Assembly: GCA_022572805.1 (NCBI GenBank)
Contig: JACZVF010000004.1
Coordinates: 1-32,978, forward strand
From: Chloroflexota bacterium
GTDB lineage: Bacteria; Chloroflexota; Dehalococcoidia; Lucifugimonadales; JADFKI01
DNA: 32,978 nt
Direction: 5' to 3'
The notes beneath the pieces were generated by a model. It was not told where the DNA came from, did not search any database, and saw only the letters and a program-made list of their open reading frames with translations. Positions 5,767 to 31,737 of the stretch are shown piece after piece. The position numbers and the translations under genes are program-made. Position 1 is the stretch's first letter, and every line of letters begins with the position of its first letter.

Positions 5767-6110
5767 AGGATGCAACCCGTAGGTATCCGTATGTAGCTCG
5801 ATGTCCATTATTGGGTAGCCACCCGGTTTCTGCTTTGAGGCAGTAAAGAATAAGCTAACTTTACTGTGGTTTAGTGTCAAGCCAAGAACAGTCCATGAAG
5901 CGGCGGATAGCTAATGTGGTGTGCGGGATCTGGATGGCTGGACGCCCAATCGACCTGGAATCCGAGTAGCGATATAAGAACATCGAAACCCGGGAGCTTG
6001 GTAGACCAGGGATATATCAAGATTGGCAAGTCTGCCTTTTCCATTGCGACATCGTGGAGAGATAGATGTTCAGGGGCTGGGCGGTCAGAAAACACAGGGG
6101 GAGTAGAGCA

Positions 6111-7202
6111 ATGAAAAACCTAGGCAGTGTATTTGACACGACGAATTCTGCAAGTCGGCTGCTCCGCAGGTCGGAGCGCGGCGTCACCGGCCTGGAGACG
6201 GCCATCATACTGATCGCGTTCGTCGTGGTCGCGTCCGTCTTCGCCTTCACCGTTCTGTCAACGGGTATCTTCTCGGCAGAGCGCGGTAAGGAAACGGTGT
6301 ACGCAGCTCTGGAACAGGCCCGCGGCAGCATAGAGCTCAAGGGTTCCGTCATCGCCAACGGCATACCCGACATAACTTTGGACGACGGCGAAGACGTTTG
6401 GGACGACCCAGGCGCGAACCTCGTGCTTTCGTCGGAGACTGTGGACAAGAAAGAGGGACTCGCCAGCAGTGCGATCCTGGTGCAGTCCGCCTTCACCACC
6501 GGCCTGATCGGCTCGGAAGTCATAACTCCCTCGGTCGACTTGACGAAATACGACTCGATCTCCTTGTGGATAAAGTCAGAAGTGGTAACTGCGGCTGGTC
6601 AGTTGCAGCTAATAATCGATGATTCCGCCGGCTGCGGCAGCGCATCGGAGACCATCGACCTGCCTGTGCTGGCAGCCGACACATGGAAGGACGTGACCCT
6701 GGGTATCAACTCGGCCACAACGCGTAACGCTATAGCATGTGTGGGCCTGAACGTGGCGACCGACTTGTCCACAAGCACCGACGTTACCATCCATATCGAC
6801 GACATAGAGGCCCAGGGACAGATCACAAGCCTGATAATACTGGTCGCCAACTCGGTCAAGGGCGAGCCCATCGACCTAACCGAGCCCGCCGACTCCAATA
6901 ACGACGGTATCGCCGACTCCGAGGACAGGCGCCACAAGGTCTTGATTAGCTACAACGACAACTTCCAGCTCAGGAGTGACATGTACTGGACCAAGCAGTT
7001 TGTGGGCGCCGACGACGGCGATGACCTGATGGAAGAGGGCGAGCGGGTTGAGTTGACCATCAGCATGCAAGGTCTGGACCAGTCGACGCCTCTTGGAAAA
7101 AGCACCCAGTTCACCCTGGAGGTGAAGCCCGCATCCGGCAGCGTGCTTGTGATACAGCGCACCACGCCGGACCAGATCAGCACCGTGATGAATCTCAAGT
7201 AG
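6111..7202 (+). CDS. Archaellin-like (archaeal flagellin-type) filament protein
   Basis: Class III signal peptide-like N-terminus RRSERGVTGLETAIILIAFVVVASVFAFTVLSTG; archaellin-like C-terminus STQFTLEVKPASGSVLVIQRTTP. Start at 6111 has upstream GGGGGAG and fits better than the 6066 track start. Confidence 0.9.
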   Translation: MKNLGSVFDTTNSASRLLRRSERGVTGLETAIILIAFVVVASVFAFTVLSTGIFSAERGKETVYAALEQARGSIELKGSVIANGIPDITLDDGEDVWDDPGANLVLSSETVDKKEGLASSAILVQSAFTTGLIGSEVITPSVDLTKYDSISLWIKSEVVTAAGQLQLIIDDSAGCGSASETIDLPVLAADTWKDVTLGINSATTRNAIACVGLNVATDLSTSTDVTIHIDDIEAQGQITSLIILVANSVKGEPIDLTEPADSNNDGIADSEDRRHKVLISYNDNFQLRSDMYWTKQFVGADDGDDLMEEGERVELTISMQGLDQSTPLGKSTQFTLEVKPASGSVLVIQRTTPDQISTVMNLK

Positions 7203-7350
7203 GCAAGCGAATCTGTGTGGGGCGGCCGCCGGGGCAACCCGGAAGGCCGTCCCAGGCCACACGCCGGAACTCATTAGGTAAGAATCAGCGCTCTCCCTGA
7301 AATCACCAGTCCAAGGGCGTGCTGACGCGAGGTCCCCTGAAGGGGTTTCT

Positions 7351-8694
7351 ATGGACATGACCAACCAGACTGGGCATATCGACGAGGAGCTTCAGCTTCT
7401 CAAGACCGAAATCAAGCAGGTCCTGCATAACGTCCAGGAGAACGTCTTTAACGCCCAGGACCCCTTTGGCGACCTGCCCTCCGCCAATGCAACGCAGGAG
7501 TTCGCATCTCTGGCTGAAAGCCAGGGGGCGGACGCCCACGCAGATTTCGTTGCCGGCGCGGGCGGTGGAAACGGACAGGCAATTCCGGATTTTTCACCGG
7601 CCACAGAAGGCCAGCCGCCGAGTTCCGGCACGGCGGAGCGCGATGGAGGAATAGCTCAGGCCTCGCCTGCCGAGCTCTCCGATTTTCTCGCCTCCGACGG
7701 CAATCAGGTTGCTGCGCCTGCGGGACCCGTGAGGCCCGGGCCGGCACAGGAGCCGGACCCAGGGCCGGGCTCAACGGAGGCAGCAGGAGACCTGAATGAG
7801 ACATCCCAGTCACAGGACTCCCCATACCGAGACATGAACGCTGGCAGGTCAACCGCGGAGGCGCCGTCCCAGAGTACGCCTAACTCGGCGTTATCTTCCA
7901 GCCCGGGATTCGAGGTATCCGCAATGGAAACTGCGGATGCTCCCGTCGATACCGTGCAGCAGGTGCATTCAATGTCGGAGCCGCAAATGGCGATAACGCC
8001 TAAAGATCTCGAAATGGACCCACAAGCGTCGATTGACGCGCTATTGGCCCAGCAAACGGCAAATCCGCCGCCTGAGACGGTCCCGGAGCCGCCGATGCAA
8101 GATGCCTCGGTCAATGTGGGACTCGATAACCCCGCTGAGCACGCCGAGGCCGGATTGCACATGAACGGCCTTCCCAACGACGAGGACCCCAACACGGGCA
8201 GTGTGCCTCCTTCGCATACGCCAAAGCCCCTTGATGTCCCGGACGCCGTAGAGGATAACAACCATCAGCCCAAGAGACCTCCGCCGCAGGACACGTTCTC
8301 CAGGGCGGCGCTTACTTACGCCTTGAGCCCTTCACATGGCGGAGGCCACGGCGAACAGAAATCGGGCGACGAGTCCATGGACCTGCTGACTATCGCAGGC
8401 CTGGCCCAATGGGCACACGGAGTCCTTCAACGTTACGGAAAAGAGTACCTGTCGGCAATACTGGAGATATCCCAGCTGACCGGCCGCATTACCAAGGAAA
8501 CTCAGGAAATCATAATGGCCATCGCGCCACTGCTTGAGTCCGTCGCCACCGATAAGGCTATCCCGGCCAAGCAGATCGTTTCCATGTTGTTGCAGCTGGA
8601 CGCCTTCCTGGGAACGGTTTCCGCCAGCGACAGCCGGCTGCTTCCGTTTCTGCTGCAGGATGACATGGAGGTGTTCCCATTAATCCGGCCATAA
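7351..8694 (+). CDS. ArlD/E (FlaD/E)-domain protein with long disordered N-terminal region
   Basis: C-terminal LLTIAGLAQWAHGVLQRYGKEYLSAILEISQLTGRITKETQEIIMAIAPL resembles the archaeal FlaD/E domain; N-terminal region is Pro/Gln/Ser/Glu-rich. Located in the archaellum-like cluster. RBS AAGGGG precedes ATG 7351. Confidence 0.72.
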   Translation: MDMTNQTGHIDEELQLLKTEIKQVLHNVQENVFNAQDPFGDLPSANATQEFASLAESQGADAHADFVAGAGGGNGQAIPDFSPATEGQPPSSGTAERDGGIAQASPAELSDFLASDGNQVAAPAGPVRPGPAQEPDPGPGSTEAAGDLNETSQSQDSPYRDMNAGRSTAEAPSQSTPNSALSSSPGFEVSAMETADAPVDTVQQVHSMSEPQMAITPKDLEMDPQASIDALLAQQTANPPPETVPEPPMQDASVNVGLDNPAEHAEAGLHMNGLPNDEDPNTGSVPPSHTPKPLDVPDAVEDNNHQPKRPPPQDTFSRAALTYALSPSHGGGHGEQKSGDESMDLLTIAGLAQWAHGVLQRYGKEYLSAILEISQLTGRITKETQEIIMAIAPLLESVATDKAIPAKQIVSMLLQLDAFLGTVSASDSRLLPFLLQDDMEVFPLIRP

Positions 8695-8699
8695 GCACA

Positions 8700-9209
8700 A
8701 TGATGCTCACCATAGCCGGAATAGCCAGCCTGGCGGCGGTTTTCAACGCTATTTTCCCCGCGCTGACCAGAAGCTCGGGGGCGATAGTAACCTCCAGCGC
8801 AAAAATCGATGAACGCCTGAGAAGCGATATCGAAATCATACATGCCGTGGGCGAGCTCGACTCCAGCGGTTCGTTTGCCGATTCCAGCCCCACCAACGGC
8901 GTTTTTGAAATTTTCGTCTGGGTAAAGAATGTAGGCGATACTCGGATAACTTCCATCGAAAACACAGATGTGTTCTTTGGGAAGGTCGGTAGTTTTTCCC
9001 GCATACCTCACCTTGTGGAGGTAGAAGCAGGCGTCTACCCCAGATGGAGTCACGATGTGGAAGGAAGCGCCAACGACACCGAACTCAACCCCAGGGATAC
9101 GTTGAAAATAACCATCGACTTCGACACGGTCACACAGAGTCAGGGGAGCTACGACATAAAGGTAACGGTCCCTAACGGTGTCACAGACGAATATTTTTTC
9201 AGCATGTAG
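8700..9209 (+). CDS. ArlG/ArlF-type archaellum protein
   Basis: N-terminal TM segment then beta-rich region with FVWVKNVGDTRI..IENTDVFFGKVG.FSRIP, characteristic of archaeal FlaG/FlaF-type proteins. The true start may be ATT at 8679. Confidence 0.78.
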   Translation: MMLTIAGIASLAAVFNAIFPALTRSSGAIVTSSAKIDERLRSDIEIIHAVGELDSSGSFADSSPTNGVFEIFVWVKNVGDTRITSIENTDVFFGKVGSFSRIPHLVEVEAGVYPRWSHDVEGSANDTELNPRDTLKITIDFDTVTQSQGSYDIKVTVPNGVTDEYFFSM

Positions 9210-9271
9210 GAACGTGGCCGCACAAATCGGCCATGTGGACCCGCCGTTTTGATAGCTAAGGGTTCGCCAAT

Positions 9272-9808
9272 ATGACCAACGTAATCATCGGTGCATTCGT
9301 AATAGCGGTGATTTTGGGCGCCTCAATGTTGCTTGCAAACGCTGCATTGTCTTCGGTAAGCAACTTGGCCGTCGGCTGGGACAGGATGATGGACCGCAAG
9401 GAGGACATAACGAGGACCAAGTTGACGTTGTTGTCCGTTGACCCCAATGCATCCAGCACGATTATCGAGGTGTCCATTCGAAATTCGGGGCAAACGTCTC
9501 TGGGTAATTTCGACAAGTGGGATGTGATGATTCGGTACTATGCCACATCCAACGACACCGATCTTAACTTGGAATGGATGTCCTACGTGGCTACCAGCAC
9601 GCCGGCAACGCTCCAATGGACCGTCGAGGGAATCTATTCAGACGCCGCGACCAGAGTGAAGGAGACATACGAGCCCAATCTGCTCAATCCAGGCGAAGAG
9701 ATGATATTGCGTGCCAATGTGACGCCGGCGATCCCTGCCGGCACCAACAACGCAATAAGTATTGGAACGCCCAACGGTGTCTCGATACCAGCGCCATTTT
9801 CACGTTAA
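9272..9808 (+). CDS. ArlF/ArlG-type archaellum protein
   Basis: N-terminal TM (VIIGAFVIAVILGASMLLANAALSSVSNLAVGWDRMMDRKED) followed by a beta-rich domain (IIEVSIRNSGQTSLGNFDKWDVMIRY). Cluster context between ArlG-type and ArlJ-type genes. Confidence 0.7.
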   Translation: MTNVIIGAFVIAVILGASMLLANAALSSVSNLAVGWDRMMDRKEDITRTKLTLLSVDPNASSTIIEVSIRNSGQTSLGNFDKWDVMIRYYATSNDTDLNLEWMSYVATSTPATLQWTVEGIYSDAATRVKETYEPNLLNPGEEMILRANVTPAIPAGTNNAISIGTPNGVSIPAPFSR

Positions 9809-9832
9809 CACCGGACTTAATATCAAATAGCC

Positions 9833-11404
9833 ATGGTAACCTCAATTAAATTGCCAATAAAGTTCTGGAAGAAGGACTCCGGCGTTGCGGAGCCCTCTGA
9901 AGCCGCGCGCAAGCCGAAACAGAAAATCAACAAGCCCAGCGATCGCAACCTACAGTTCGACCTCTTCGCTCAGTTGACGTACATGGCGGCCATAGCCACG
10001 GCGCGTATTTCCCGCTCGGAGCTATTTGAAAGCGCCTGCAAGCTGCCTTACTCATCCACGCCCTACTTTCGGCAGGTTCACTTCCTGGCCGAAAAGGTGG
10101 GGATCGACTACGCCGAGGCGTGCCGTATGATCGCCGAGCGCACGAAGGTTGAAGAGATTAGAGGTTTCCTGCTAAGACTTTCCGGCGCGTTGGCATCCGG
10201 CGAAGACGAAGAGGAGTTTCTGAAGCGCGAGGCCGGCGTTATCGCCGACAACTTCACCAACCGCTATGAGCGGGACGTGGAGTCCCTGAAGAAATGGACA
10301 GACGCCTACGTCACGCTGGTCGTGGCGGCCGGCCTTATCGTGATCGTATCGGTAATTTCGATGATGATTTACGACGTAGGCACCGGCATGATCGTAGGGA
10401 TAGCCTTCACCATGGTGTTGGTAACCTGCCTGGGTGCGTGGATTCTGTATATCAGCTCGCCTCATGAGGTGAAAACAAGGGTTAAAGGCCCGACCTCCAG
10501 GTTGCAAATAATGGCGACGAAATTATTCGTCATGTTGGGACCGCTGGCTGCGACCGTGGCGGCGCTGATGTTCCTGGCCGGTTTTAGCCTGGGCTCCATT
10601 TTGATAGCAGGTGGAGCGATCCTGTTCCTGCCAGGATTCTTGATGAACAGGAACGACGGCAAGCTTAGCAAAATAGACTATGACATTCCCACAGTCGTGC
10701 GGGTGTTAGGCGGGGTAACGTCTGCCATCGGCACCACGGTTACGCAGGCGCTGGGACAGATAGACAAGCGTTCCATGGGTGTGCTCACGCCTGAGATGAA
10801 CCGTCTACGCTACCGATTGGACGCAGGCATAGACCCAAAGGCGTGTTGGGACAGGTTCGTCGATGAGACCGGGAGCGAGCTGGTAGAGCGCACGATATGC
10901 ATGTTCTGGGACGCCTTGAGCATGGGCGCGGACCCGGGGAAGGCCGGCGAGGCATCGTCGGTGTTCGCCGCTAGAATAGCCCACCTTCGAGCCACGCGAA
11001 GCATGGTTGCCGTCACGTTCCAGTGGCTTATTCTCCCCCTGCACATCGCCATGGTGGGTCTGATGCTGTTCATACCGCAAATCATGACAATGTTCACGGA
11101 GATGATCAACCAGAGCGCCGAGGTGCTCACCAGCAATTCGAACTCCAGCCTACCCAACTCCAGCGTGCCCATTGGGGAACTGTTTGCATTCGGCAACGTG
11201 GACCTGACGATTATTAACATCCTGGTCACCTTCGTAGTGCTGGTGCTGACCGCAGCAAACGCCTTCGCGCCCAAGGCCGCGGGCGGTGGGCATAATCTAA
11301 GGATCGTTTACAACCTCTCAATCATGATGATTATCACCGGGGCGCTGATGCTGGCGATCCCCGTATTCACCAGGTCCATTTTCCAGTCCATAGTTGATAC
11401 GTAA
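9833..11404 (+). CDS. ArlJ (FlaJ)-type archaellum membrane platform protein (T2SF/TadC superfamily)
   Basis: 523 aa with multiple TM segments and duplicated T2SF-like cytoplasmic helical domains (FAQLTYMAAIATARISRSELFE..; VRVLGGVTSAIGTTVTQALGQI..), typical of FlaJ. Confidence 0.87.
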   Translation: MVTSIKLPIKFWKKDSGVAEPSEAARKPKQKINKPSDRNLQFDLFAQLTYMAAIATARISRSELFESACKLPYSSTPYFRQVHFLAEKVGIDYAEACRMIAERTKVEEIRGFLLRLSGALASGEDEEEFLKREAGVIADNFTNRYERDVESLKKWTDAYVTLVVAAGLIVIVSVISMMIYDVGTGMIVGIAFTMVLVTCLGAWILYISSPHEVKTRVKGPTSRLQIMATKLFVMLGPLAATVAALMFLAGFSLGSILIAGGAILFLPGFLMNRNDGKLSKIDYDIPTVVRVLGGVTSAIGTTVTQALGQIDKRSMGVLTPEMNRLRYRLDAGIDPKACWDRFVDETGSELVERTICMFWDALSMGADPGKAGEASSVFAARIAHLRATRSMVAVTFQWLILPLHIAMVGLMLFIPQIMTMFTEMINQSAEVLTSNSNSSLPNSSVPIGELFAFGNVDLTIINILVTFVVLVLTAANAFAPKAAGGGHNLRIVYNLSIMMIITGALMLAIPVFTRSIFQSIVDT

Positions 11405-23569: not shown

Positions 23570-23618
23570 TTGACAGCGTATACCTCCGCGAGTAATATAT
23601 AGCCATCCAATATATTGG
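23570..23618 (+). promoter_or_regulatory. Sigma70-type promoter with overlapping palindromic operator
   Basis: TTGACA (23570-23575), 17-nt spacer, TAATAT (23593-23598), then the perfect palindrome CCAATATATTGG (23607-23618) at the expected start site, about 35 nt before the PadR start codon. Confidence 0.72.
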
Positions 23619-23652
23619 CCAAATAGGTATACCCCCAATACATAGATCGAGG

Positions 23653-24063
23653 ATGAGTATGGTTACTGCTACAAGGCCCGACATGGTGTCCGAGGAGTAT
23701 TGGGAGAACCTCATCAAAAAGAGCGCGTCCCGTTACTTCTTGCTGGGCATGCTGTTCCGGAAGCCCATGCACGGCTACGAGATTGCGAAAACGATTGAGG
23801 ACTGCTGCGAGGGCTGGTGCAAACCAACCGACGGCATGATCTACCCCACCCTCAAGGAGATGGTGGCCGGCGGCTACATCGAGTGCGAAAGCGAGGTTAT
23901 CGATGGCAGGGTGCGAAAGGTCTGCCACCTCACAGACAAGGGCCGGGAGGCCTACAGGTCTGCGGCGCGGGTCTGGGCTAGCGTGCTGCCATACCTGAAT
24001 AATTCGGTTAAAGAGGCCGGAGCGACGGTGGATTCCGCGTGCGGCTGCTGTGGCGGCGACTAG
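23653..24063 (+). CDS. PadR-family transcriptional regulator with cysteine clusters
   Basis: YFLLGMLFRKPMHGYEIAKTIEDCCEGWCKPTDGMIYPTLKEMVAGGYIE.. VCHLTDKGREAYR; tail ACGCCGGD. Confidence 0.93.
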   Translation: MSMVTATRPDMVSEEYWENLIKKSASRYFLLGMLFRKPMHGYEIAKTIEDCCEGWCKPTDGMIYPTLKEMVAGGYIECESEVIDGRVRKVCHLTDKGREAYRSAARVWASVLPYLNNSVKEAGATVDSACGCCGGD

Positions 24064-24118
24064 ACGCAGGCCGCAAAACCTACGGATCGCCTTATGAAAA
24101 AACAACGGGAGGAATCTA

Positions 24119-24865
24119 ATGGCTGAAATGACGGATGCGGAAGTGAAGGACCTGGTAAGGGAAAACTATGCGCAGGTGGCCCAAGGCGCCACTGCCTGCT
24201 GCTCCAGCGACTGTTGCAGCGAGCCAAACAAGCTTTACGACGTCGAGGAGATAAAGGACCTGCCGGCGGAGGCTGTCATGGCCTCTGCGGGGTGCGGCAA
24301 CCCGACGGCAATCGGAGAGCTGGCTTCCGGCGAGACGGTGGTGGATTTCGGCAGCGGAGGCGGCATCGACTGCTTCATCGCGGCCAAGGCTGTGGGTCCC
24401 GAGGGCAAGGTCATTGGCGTTGACATGACCGAGGACATGGTTAACCTGGCACGCACCAATGCGGCGAAGCTGGGCCTGAGCAACGTGGAATTTCACCTGA
24501 CCGAGATGGAGCACACGCCCATCGCGGACGGCTCGGTGGATGTGATCATATCCAACTGCGTCATCAACCTGGCGCCGGACAAGGGCGAGGTATTCCGGGA
24601 GGCGTTCCGAATCCTGAAGCCGGGGGGCCGGGCCTACATCTCGGACATGCTGCTGGTGAAGGACCTTCCGGAGGAGGCGAAGGCGGATAGGAAAAACTGG
24701 GTCATGTGCCTCTCCGGCGCAGAGCGCAAGGACGTTTACCTGGGCCGAATGCGGGACGCCGGCTTCGTGGACACGCAGGTCCTGGAGGACAAGCCGTGGG
24801 ATGGCCCGGAGAGCTGGGCCTCGGATGTGCATAGCATGAACATCCGCGCATACAAGCCCGTTTAG
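24119..24865 (+). CDS. arsM: Arsenite S-adenosylmethionine methyltransferase
   Basis: CCSSDCC N-terminus, ASAGCGNP, VVDFGSGGGIDCFIAAKAVGPEGKVIGVDMT, ISNCVINLAPDKGEVFREAFRILKPGGR. RBS GGGAGGA. Confidence 0.95.
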   Translation: MAEMTDAEVKDLVRENYAQVAQGATACCSSDCCSEPNKLYDVEEIKDLPAEAVMASAGCGNPTAIGELASGETVVDFGSGGGIDCFIAAKAVGPEGKVIGVDMTEDMVNLARTNAAKLGLSNVEFHLTEMEHTPIADGSVDVIISNCVINLAPDKGEVFREAFRILKPGGRAYISDMLLVKDLPEEAKADRKNWVMCLSGAERKDVYLGRMRDAGFVDTQVLEDKPWDGPESWASDVHSMNIRAYKPV

Positions 24866-24888: not shown

Positions 24889-24913
24889 GGGCCCGACTGT
24901 AAAAGTCGGGCCC
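24889..24913. terminator. Hairpin terminator between converging arsM and coiled-coil gene
   Basis: Perfect 10-bp stem gggcccgact / agtcgggccc with 5-nt loop, between convergent genes. Confidence 0.75.
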
Positions 24914-30492: not shown

Positions 30493-30792
30493 GCCGGAGG
30501 GGAAAGCCCCTCTGGACTACCCCATGACGATTTTAAGATAGCGACTTAATCACAGCAGGTCTCGCCCCAAGGCCCAAGGGCGACTCGACACCAGCACACC
30601 CTGTTTTGCCATCGTGACGGCTCCCCGGCCCCTTCCCATCCGATCCATCGATGGGTGGCCGAGCCCGGCGGCAGCCGCCCATCCCATCCAGCCACCGATA
30701 GCAAAGCCACGTGGCGGGCCGTTATGCCAACGCCCGCTTCTGTTTATCTACAAATCGACAACAGAAAATACCGAGGCGCCACAATACCTTCG

Positions 30793-31737
30793 ATGCGAAA
30801 TCTAGTCCTTCTAATAATGCTGACCGGCCTGGTCACCACCGCCTGCTTCTTCGGCGGCGACGATGACGAGACGGTCGAGGCACAGGAGCAATCAGACGCA
30901 GAGAGTGGCGATGCGGAAGACAAAGACGGCGGCGACGACGAAAAAAAGCAAGATGAAGACTCGGGGGCCGATGTAATTGAGGGGCCTCAGGGCCCGGCTG
31001 GGCCTCAAGGCCCGGCGGGGACTCAGGGACTACCCGGCCCTGCTGGAATTTCCGGGCCACCGGGAGCACGAGGAGCGCAAGGCCCTCCCGGCGAGAATCG
31101 CGGTCCGCTTGGCCCCCCGGGTCAGCAAGGGCCTCCGGGTCACTTGGGAGGGAAGGGCCCCCAAGGGATAGCCGGCGAAGAAGGCCCGATGGGTATTCGA
31201 GGGCAGATTGGACCACAAGGAGAAACCGGCGGCGCCGGGGACAAGGGCCCAACGGGTGATCAGGGCACACAGGGCGGGACTGGAGTGCAAGGCCCCCGAG
31301 GTGTACAGGGGCTGTCCGGCCTTCAGGGTCCCGCTGGTCCACAAGGCCCCGTCGGACCGCAGGGAATTCAGGGGACACCTGGCACGCCGGGCGGTCCTAA
31401 AGGCGACAAGGGCGACAAAGGCGACAAGGGCGGCAAGGGCGACAAAGGGTCCAAGGGCGACGAAGGCGACAAAGGCGACAAGGGCCAGCCAGGAGGAGTT
31501 GGCGGCTGGACTTACGTCGCTGAGGTAGACGACTCAGACGATGTCGACCGGACCATTGACGCCGTGTGCCCTGTGGATAGGGTGGTGATTAGTGGCGGAT
31601 TCAGCATCAGCGAAGAAGAGGCTGTCGTTATGCAAAACCTGCCCTTAAAAGACGGCACCGCCTGGCGGGTTAGGGCTGTTGGCCCCGACTACAACTGGCG
31701 TCTCCGAGTCTACGCAATCTGCGTGGACGAACGGTAA
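30793..31737 (+). CDS. Collagen-like (Gly-X-Y) lipoprotein
   Basis: Lipobox-like LVTTAC after a hydrophobic segment, acidic stalk, about 55-60 Gly-X-Y triplets ending in (KGD)n, then a C-terminal domain with [32 protein letters not shown] 30793 preferred over 30655. Confidence 0.9.

Follow-up and report, generated by a model that had tools for sequence, protein, structure and literature searches.

A cysteine-bearing PadR regulator as a likely arsenical-responsive switch of arsM in Chloroflexota

We describe a padR-arsM gene pair from a Chloroflexota bacterium that is likely controlled by a PadR-based, arsenical-sensing switch separate from ArsR. Our comparisons show a clade of related PadR proteins, its linkage to arsM, the conservation of its cysteines and an array of sequence boxes at its promoters; repression rather than activation, the nature of the ligand and the allosteric step are all inferred, in the absence of data on binding, expression or structure. 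ArsR is the textbook regulator of arsenic operons and also the part used in arsenic biosensors. If our reading is true, cysteines that sense arsenicals from beside a recognition helix arose separately from those of ArsR, the control of a set of uncultured Chloroflexota arsM genes is accounted for, and biosensor design gains a new part whose operator is defined: the system consists of one protein, a 65-bp promoter and three cysteines. The stretch of DNA that we analyzed (‘the window’; 32,978 nucleotides) is contig 255 of a 2.87-Mb source genome in 316 contigs (89.6% complete, 6.6% contaminated).

The padR open reading frame (23653–24063, + strand) encodes a protein of 136 amino acids, assigned as a PadR-like regulator from its Pfam profile (PF03551, 62.4 bits against a cut-off of 27), its cysteine inventory and an AlphaFold model. 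The true start is likely the second ATG, at 23659; judging by eye, we favor it because a GAGG motif is normally spaced before this codon, whereas the first ATG abuts GAGG. The next gene, arsM (24119–24865), starts 55 bp past the padR stop on the same strand, and encodes an arsenite S-adenosylmethionine methyltransferase whose membership in NF008823 is met by score (299.7 bits, cut-off 263), arsenite methylation itself being inferred. The solved structures nearest to this ArsM are arsenic methyltransferases. Its cysteines lie at positions 27/28 (or 32/33), 59, 147 and 197; C59, C147 and C197 are kept in all 34 of the 34 PadR-linked ArsMs that we compared, and C27 in 32 of them. A sigma-70-type promoter (TTGACA, 17 bp, TAATAT; 23570–23598, + strand) with 10 of 12 consensus matches lies upstream of padR, and a terminator-like hairpin with a 10-bp stem and a weak T tail follows arsM (24889–24913, + strand). 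The hairpin is weak evidence by itself, because one was found against 1.0 expected in shuffles; taken together, the promoter before padR and the hairpin after arsM make the pair look like one two-gene operon.

Elsewhere in the window we noted an archaellum-like cluster (6066–11404), an observation in a Chloroflexota genome that rests on two Arch_flagellin matches (1.1e-19 and 8.2e-10) alongside FlaF-like and T2SSF/FlaJ-like proteins, and a gene for a 360-residue collagen-like GXY repeat protein (30655–31737; Pfam Collagen, 2.4e-22). The source genome also holds an ArsM-like methyltransferase gene (L231:1336–2140; C46) with an in-frame TGA at approximately the position of the catalytic C197 of ArsM: it reads LWTG*IAGAL where ArsM has WVMCLSGAE, and T and G stand in place of C59 and C147, respectively. 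This gene could be a selenocysteine relative or a pseudogene. A single TGA also occurs in several other ArsM matches of the class; in one of these (L058) it is not at the C197 site.

The regulator belongs to the PadR family and not to ArsR: Pfam returns PadR and HTH_34 only, with no HTH_5/ArsR profile, and the protein fails ArsR/SmtB membership. That it works like ArsR, with DNA release dependent on an arsenical, is inferred. In the AlphaFold model (pLDDT 87.9; helices 41–51, 60–72 and 95–121; strands 76–83 and 86–93), a winged helix-turn-helix is followed by a long dimerization helix. The top fold matches of this model are PadRs, with Rv3488 first; against the Rv3488 regulator model (NF053635), the window protein scores 29.6 bits and does not meet the equivalog cut-off of 140. 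PadRs touch DNA through two tyrosines (PMC6457526), and the residues that align with these, Y42 and Y64, are invariant across our PadR alignments (one row from N-containing DNA was left out whole from the alignment used for structural work). The protein carries eight cysteines, which fall at three sites. C51, C52 and C56 occupy the α2-α3 turn, within a D50-C-C-E-G-W-C56 motif that immediately precedes the recognition helix (in the model, α2 stops at residue 51 and the recognition helix, which contains Y64, begins at 60). C78 and C91 lie in the wing strands and face each other across the hairpin in the model, a pairing that we deduced from the strand limits. The tail reads C130-G-C132-C133.

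A preliminary description of this locus had reported the DCCEGWC motif beside the winged helix, the CGCC tail, arsM 55 bp downstream and no visible ArsR, and each of these statements held. No ArsR is visible within the window. In the source genome, 89.6% complete, the four HTH_5 matches are either Lrp/AsnC-like or regulators in which a CxC site is lacking, and probing with a canonical CCVC ArsR gave no match.

We collected relatives of the window PadR from 294 genomes of the class and, in a wider scan, from 84,980 species genomes. The class genomes yielded approximately 25 matches at E<1e-20 with 37–59% identity, generic PadRs appearing only at E>1e-15; the additions from the wider scan were nearly all Chloroflexota, plus one contig labeled Eisenbacteria (L108). 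Once identical proteins were removed, 46 distinct PadRs remained, nearly all from uncultured Chloroflexota. They form a single group in the tree (support 96/91), within which an arsM-rich sub-clade is supported at 99/96. In 38 of the 43 members with room to judge, arsM lies downstream on the same strand; the other five have no adjacent arsM, and a further three members run off their contigs. Among background PadRs with room, the count is 0 of 42 (Fisher p about 5e-19, a nominal value only because clade sequences are related). The padR-arsM gap has a median of 58.5 bp, ranging from −4 to 359 bp in 37 loci and reaching 1528 bp in L098. The interval in that locus (L098:3961–5429) encodes a PLP enzyme of Cys/Met metabolism and part of a methyltransferase that bears a CC motif; these may be additional genes for arsenic or sulfur, or may have been inserted recently. 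Pairwise distances of PadR and ArsM correlate over 34 loci (r 0.81; permutation maximum 0.205), to which shared organism phylogeny contributes.

Could the neighborhood simply be a coincidence, or the hitch-hiking of an unrelated regulator? Three clade members (L074, L078 and L089) that lie beside non-arsenic genes speak for this possibility. Against it, the linkage holds at 37–67% PadR identity to the window protein, across many families of the class and in the Eisenbacteria contig, and a conserved operator, with a single site in the source genome, is found at the shared promoter. We consider coincidence to be all but excluded, and regulation of arsM by PadR to be well supported by comparison and likely, in the absence of expression data. 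This control has a limited reach: arsM is present in 185 of the 294 class genomes, and is so common there that most arsM genes must use another control. ArsR-like genes occur near 7 of the 30 best arsM loci in the class. The source genome has a second PadR (C60), which is of the typical type and only 27% identical to the window protein.

Another key feature of the clade is its cysteine site. The preliminary description had named a lack of Cys conservation among arsM-linked homologues as grounds for refutation, a test that the protein passes: at least two cysteines are present in the α2-α3 turn (window residues 49–58) in 45 of 46 members, the exception (L112) having one, and the wing cysteines are retained at C78 in 37/45 and at C91 in 38/44. 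The turn cysteines move between lineages, from CCxG to GCC arrangements, and by window column are found at C51 in 17/46, C52 in 32/46, column 55 in 29/35 and C56 in 33/45. Over these four columns and the two wing columns, 47 background PadRs have one cysteine in total. The weight that had been given to the CGCC tail is what needed correction. Tail cysteines occur in 12 of 13 members that lack C55/C56 (the C51/C52 type) and in 8 of 33 otherwise (p 3e-5, nominal), so we regard the tail as a lineage-specific extra. It may be that a tail cysteine serves as a compensating third ligand; the data suggest this without proving it, as the lineages are related. We tried and rejected the CGCC tail as the core sensor, since it is found in only part of the clade. 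The conserved part is the turn cysteines, and the tail is variable.

The promoter regions of the clade share a further signature. TTGACA, on either strand, is found upstream of 24 of the 46 padR genes (2.2 expected), ATATATAG in 28 of the 46 loci (1.6 expected) and ATACCTA/TAGGTAT in 25 (2.0 expected). Pairs drawn from ATATAT, ATACCT and AGGTAT are spaced exactly 15 bp apart, start to start, in 30/46 upstream regions, against 0.02 in shuffles, and 30 bp apart in 18/46. The exact 15-bp pair is absent from 15 of the 46 regions, in some perhaps owing to a misassigned start. In the window, four boxes at exact 15-bp steps make up a putative PadR operator (23580–23630, no strand assigned): ATACCT at 23580–23585, ATATAT at 23595–23600 and again at 23610–23615, and AGGTAT at 23625–23630. 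We have no binding data for it. This array overlaps the −10 element and probable transcription start of the near-consensus promoter, and the exact half-site ATATAT-N9-AGGTAT occurs only twice in the 2.87-Mb genome, both times at this operator. The Acr3 gene, on another contig (L232; TIGR00832, 439 bits), and the second ArsM-like gene (L231) have no exact operator and were dropped as extra targets. Searching the class with the full 36-bp operator (ATACCT-N9-ATATAT-N9-AGGTAT, graded by mismatches) retrieved, at 0–1 mismatch, padR-arsM in four genomes as well as sites in G021 and G188, the former directly upstream of another PadR match. We drew no regulon, because matches with two mismatches were near the level of a backwards-pattern control. 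The box words also lie near a few other PadRs (G021, G268), and therefore the boxes partly reflect general PadR recognition.

The operator bears on whether the protein might instead be an activator (MerR-like) or need another effector, its cysteines serving stability only, with no arsenical-driven release. In favor of this alternative, the four-box array exceeds a simple operator in length, and the PadR family includes activators and proteins with organic ligands. On the other hand, the boxes cover the −10 element and start, where bound protein would block RNA polymerase, and LmrR and other characterized short PadRs are autoregulatory repressors (PMC4534193; PMC6457526). We find the activator model very unlikely.

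Repression relieved by an arsenical remains our preferred reading, and members with partners other than arsM are instructive in this respect. An ArsP_1 permease gene lies downstream of PadR in L087 (3.5e-61), in L229, which comes from elsewhere in the phylum (6.6e-52; an ArsR-type regulator with ECVC is nearby), and on a Cupriavidus basilensis plasmid (9.9e-56), whose promoter holds ATACCT-N9-AGGTAT by eye. On Roseomonas mucosa plasmids, PadR is followed by a Cys-rich flavoprotein and an ArsK-like MFS pump (241.8 bits, cut-off 400); these plasmid-borne PadRs, from Cupriavidus and Roseomonas, are basal members. In L230, a divergent CCVC ArsR adjoins PadR, and the same 12-kb contig carries an ArsC-like LMWPc protein and ArsM. 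Scores below curated equivalog cut-offs leave the substrates of the ArsP_1 and ArsK-like partners uncertain. The ArsP link agrees with a predicted interaction network in Exiguobacterium that connects an ArsP_1 protein to a PadR (PMC6016940). Partner swaps stay mostly among arsenic-type genes, which lends independent support to an arsenic role. As a separate observation, the flavoprotein between the GCC-type PadR and the ArsK-like pump on the Roseomonas plasmids (L239:6440–7894) has several CC motifs and is only distantly ArsO-like (40.7 bits, cut-off 425); it is a possible candidate for a new arsenical-processing enzyme. L074 and L078 are close paralogues with a GCC turn beside acyl-CoA metabolism genes (acyl-CoA dehydrogenase and amidohydrolase-like genes, named by eye) and no arsM, and L089 adjoins an MFS gene; none of the three has an obvious arsenic partner. 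L074 and L078 might be orphan regulators or have an altered ligand. These three neighborhoods count against our preferred reading, as do the uncertain partner substrates, the moving turn cysteines with only one in L112, the upstream regions without an exact 15-bp pair and the lack of such an operator at the Acr3 gene.

The same data allow another alternative, that PadR does control arsM while its cysteines sense a different thiophile (Cd, Zn, Hg, Cu or Sb), respond to redox or electrophiles, or hold a structural metal, arsM being induced within a broader thiol-stress response. Several points favor it: the closest solved fold is that of Rv3488, two entries of which are complexes with ligands that we take to be metals; efflux models for Cu/Zn and SaoE are the best-scoring ones for the ArsP_1 permeases; the cross-strand C78/C91 pair in the model wing could be a disulfide or a structural site; and the PadR protein ChrI is induced by chromate (PMC2936356). 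Against it, the main partner is arsM (38/43), an enzyme that is largely arsenic-specific; no Cd/Zn/Hg/Cu pump lies immediately downstream in the loci inspected; and C78 and C91 are both absent from L076, L087, L088 and the Cupriavidus protein. We judge this alternative to be unlikely. The earlier proposal that the PadR may sense As(III) or another thiophilic metal is supported by Cys conservation, the ArsP-family and ArsK-like links and the conserved operator at the padR-arsM promoter; without binding data, the ligand, be it As(III), methylarsenite or another thiophile, stands as an inference only.

We hypothesize that padR-arsM is an autoregulated two-gene operon for arsenic detoxification. 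A PadR dimer would bind the tandem/inverted, 15-bp-spaced boxes over the −10 element and start, and so repress its own promoter. The turn thiols C51, C52 and C56 would bind a trivalent arsenical (As(III), plausibly methylarsenite), with help from tail or wing cysteines in certain lineages; the bound arsenical would shift the recognition helix beside the DNA-contacting Y42 and Y64, the repressor would release DNA, and ArsM would be produced and arsenic methylated. In type 1 ArsR, As(III) is bound by three cysteines of the DNA-binding domain; SpArsR has two cysteines and responds to methylarsenite only (PMC11868830). Methylarsenite is a plausible ligand here, given the members with two cysteines and the partners of the ArsP family. 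A bolder reading, which taken as a whole we think slightly more likely to fail than to hold, is that the PadR fold independently gave rise to a second class of arsenical repressors that work through thiols, spread over at least three phyla and plasmids; their turn site of two or three cysteines would respond to methylarsenite at least as well as to arsenite, and a 15-bp-periodic operator would let them control arsM and genes of the ArsP-family and ArsK-like types. We found no PadR arsenic sensor in the literature searched; many subscription papers lay outside that search, and the absence is weak. With that reservation, the switch is likely previously undescribed.

The clade can be compared with several known systems. 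With the ArsR/SmtB types considered (R773, AfArsR, CgArsR, SpArsR and ArArsR; PMC11868830), it shares a winged-helix repressor gene heading an ars operon and vicinal cysteines in or near the DNA-binding domain; ArArsR also heads an operon that contains arsM (PMC11868830). It differs in being PF03551 rather than PF01022, in its operator, and in placing its cysteines in the PadR α2-α3 turn, as CC-x-G-x-C or C-x-G-C-C. The short PadR-2 subfamily (LmrR, LftR) resembles it in fold, size, signature tyrosines and autoregulatory promoter position; in contrast to the conserved Cys site of the clade, the known members have a dimer cavity that takes up aromatic drugs or dyes. Rv3488 of Mycobacterium tuberculosis is likewise a short PadR and the best solved fold match; Rv3488 binds metal. 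It is just 24–25% identical to the window PadR, and is not known to be linked to arsM. Finally, the gene for ChrI, the PadR of chromate operons, similarly precedes a metal resistance gene and shares its regulation (PMC2936356); in that case the partner is chrA, and ChrI is proposed to recognize its oxyanion by basic residues rather than by cysteines (PMC2936356).
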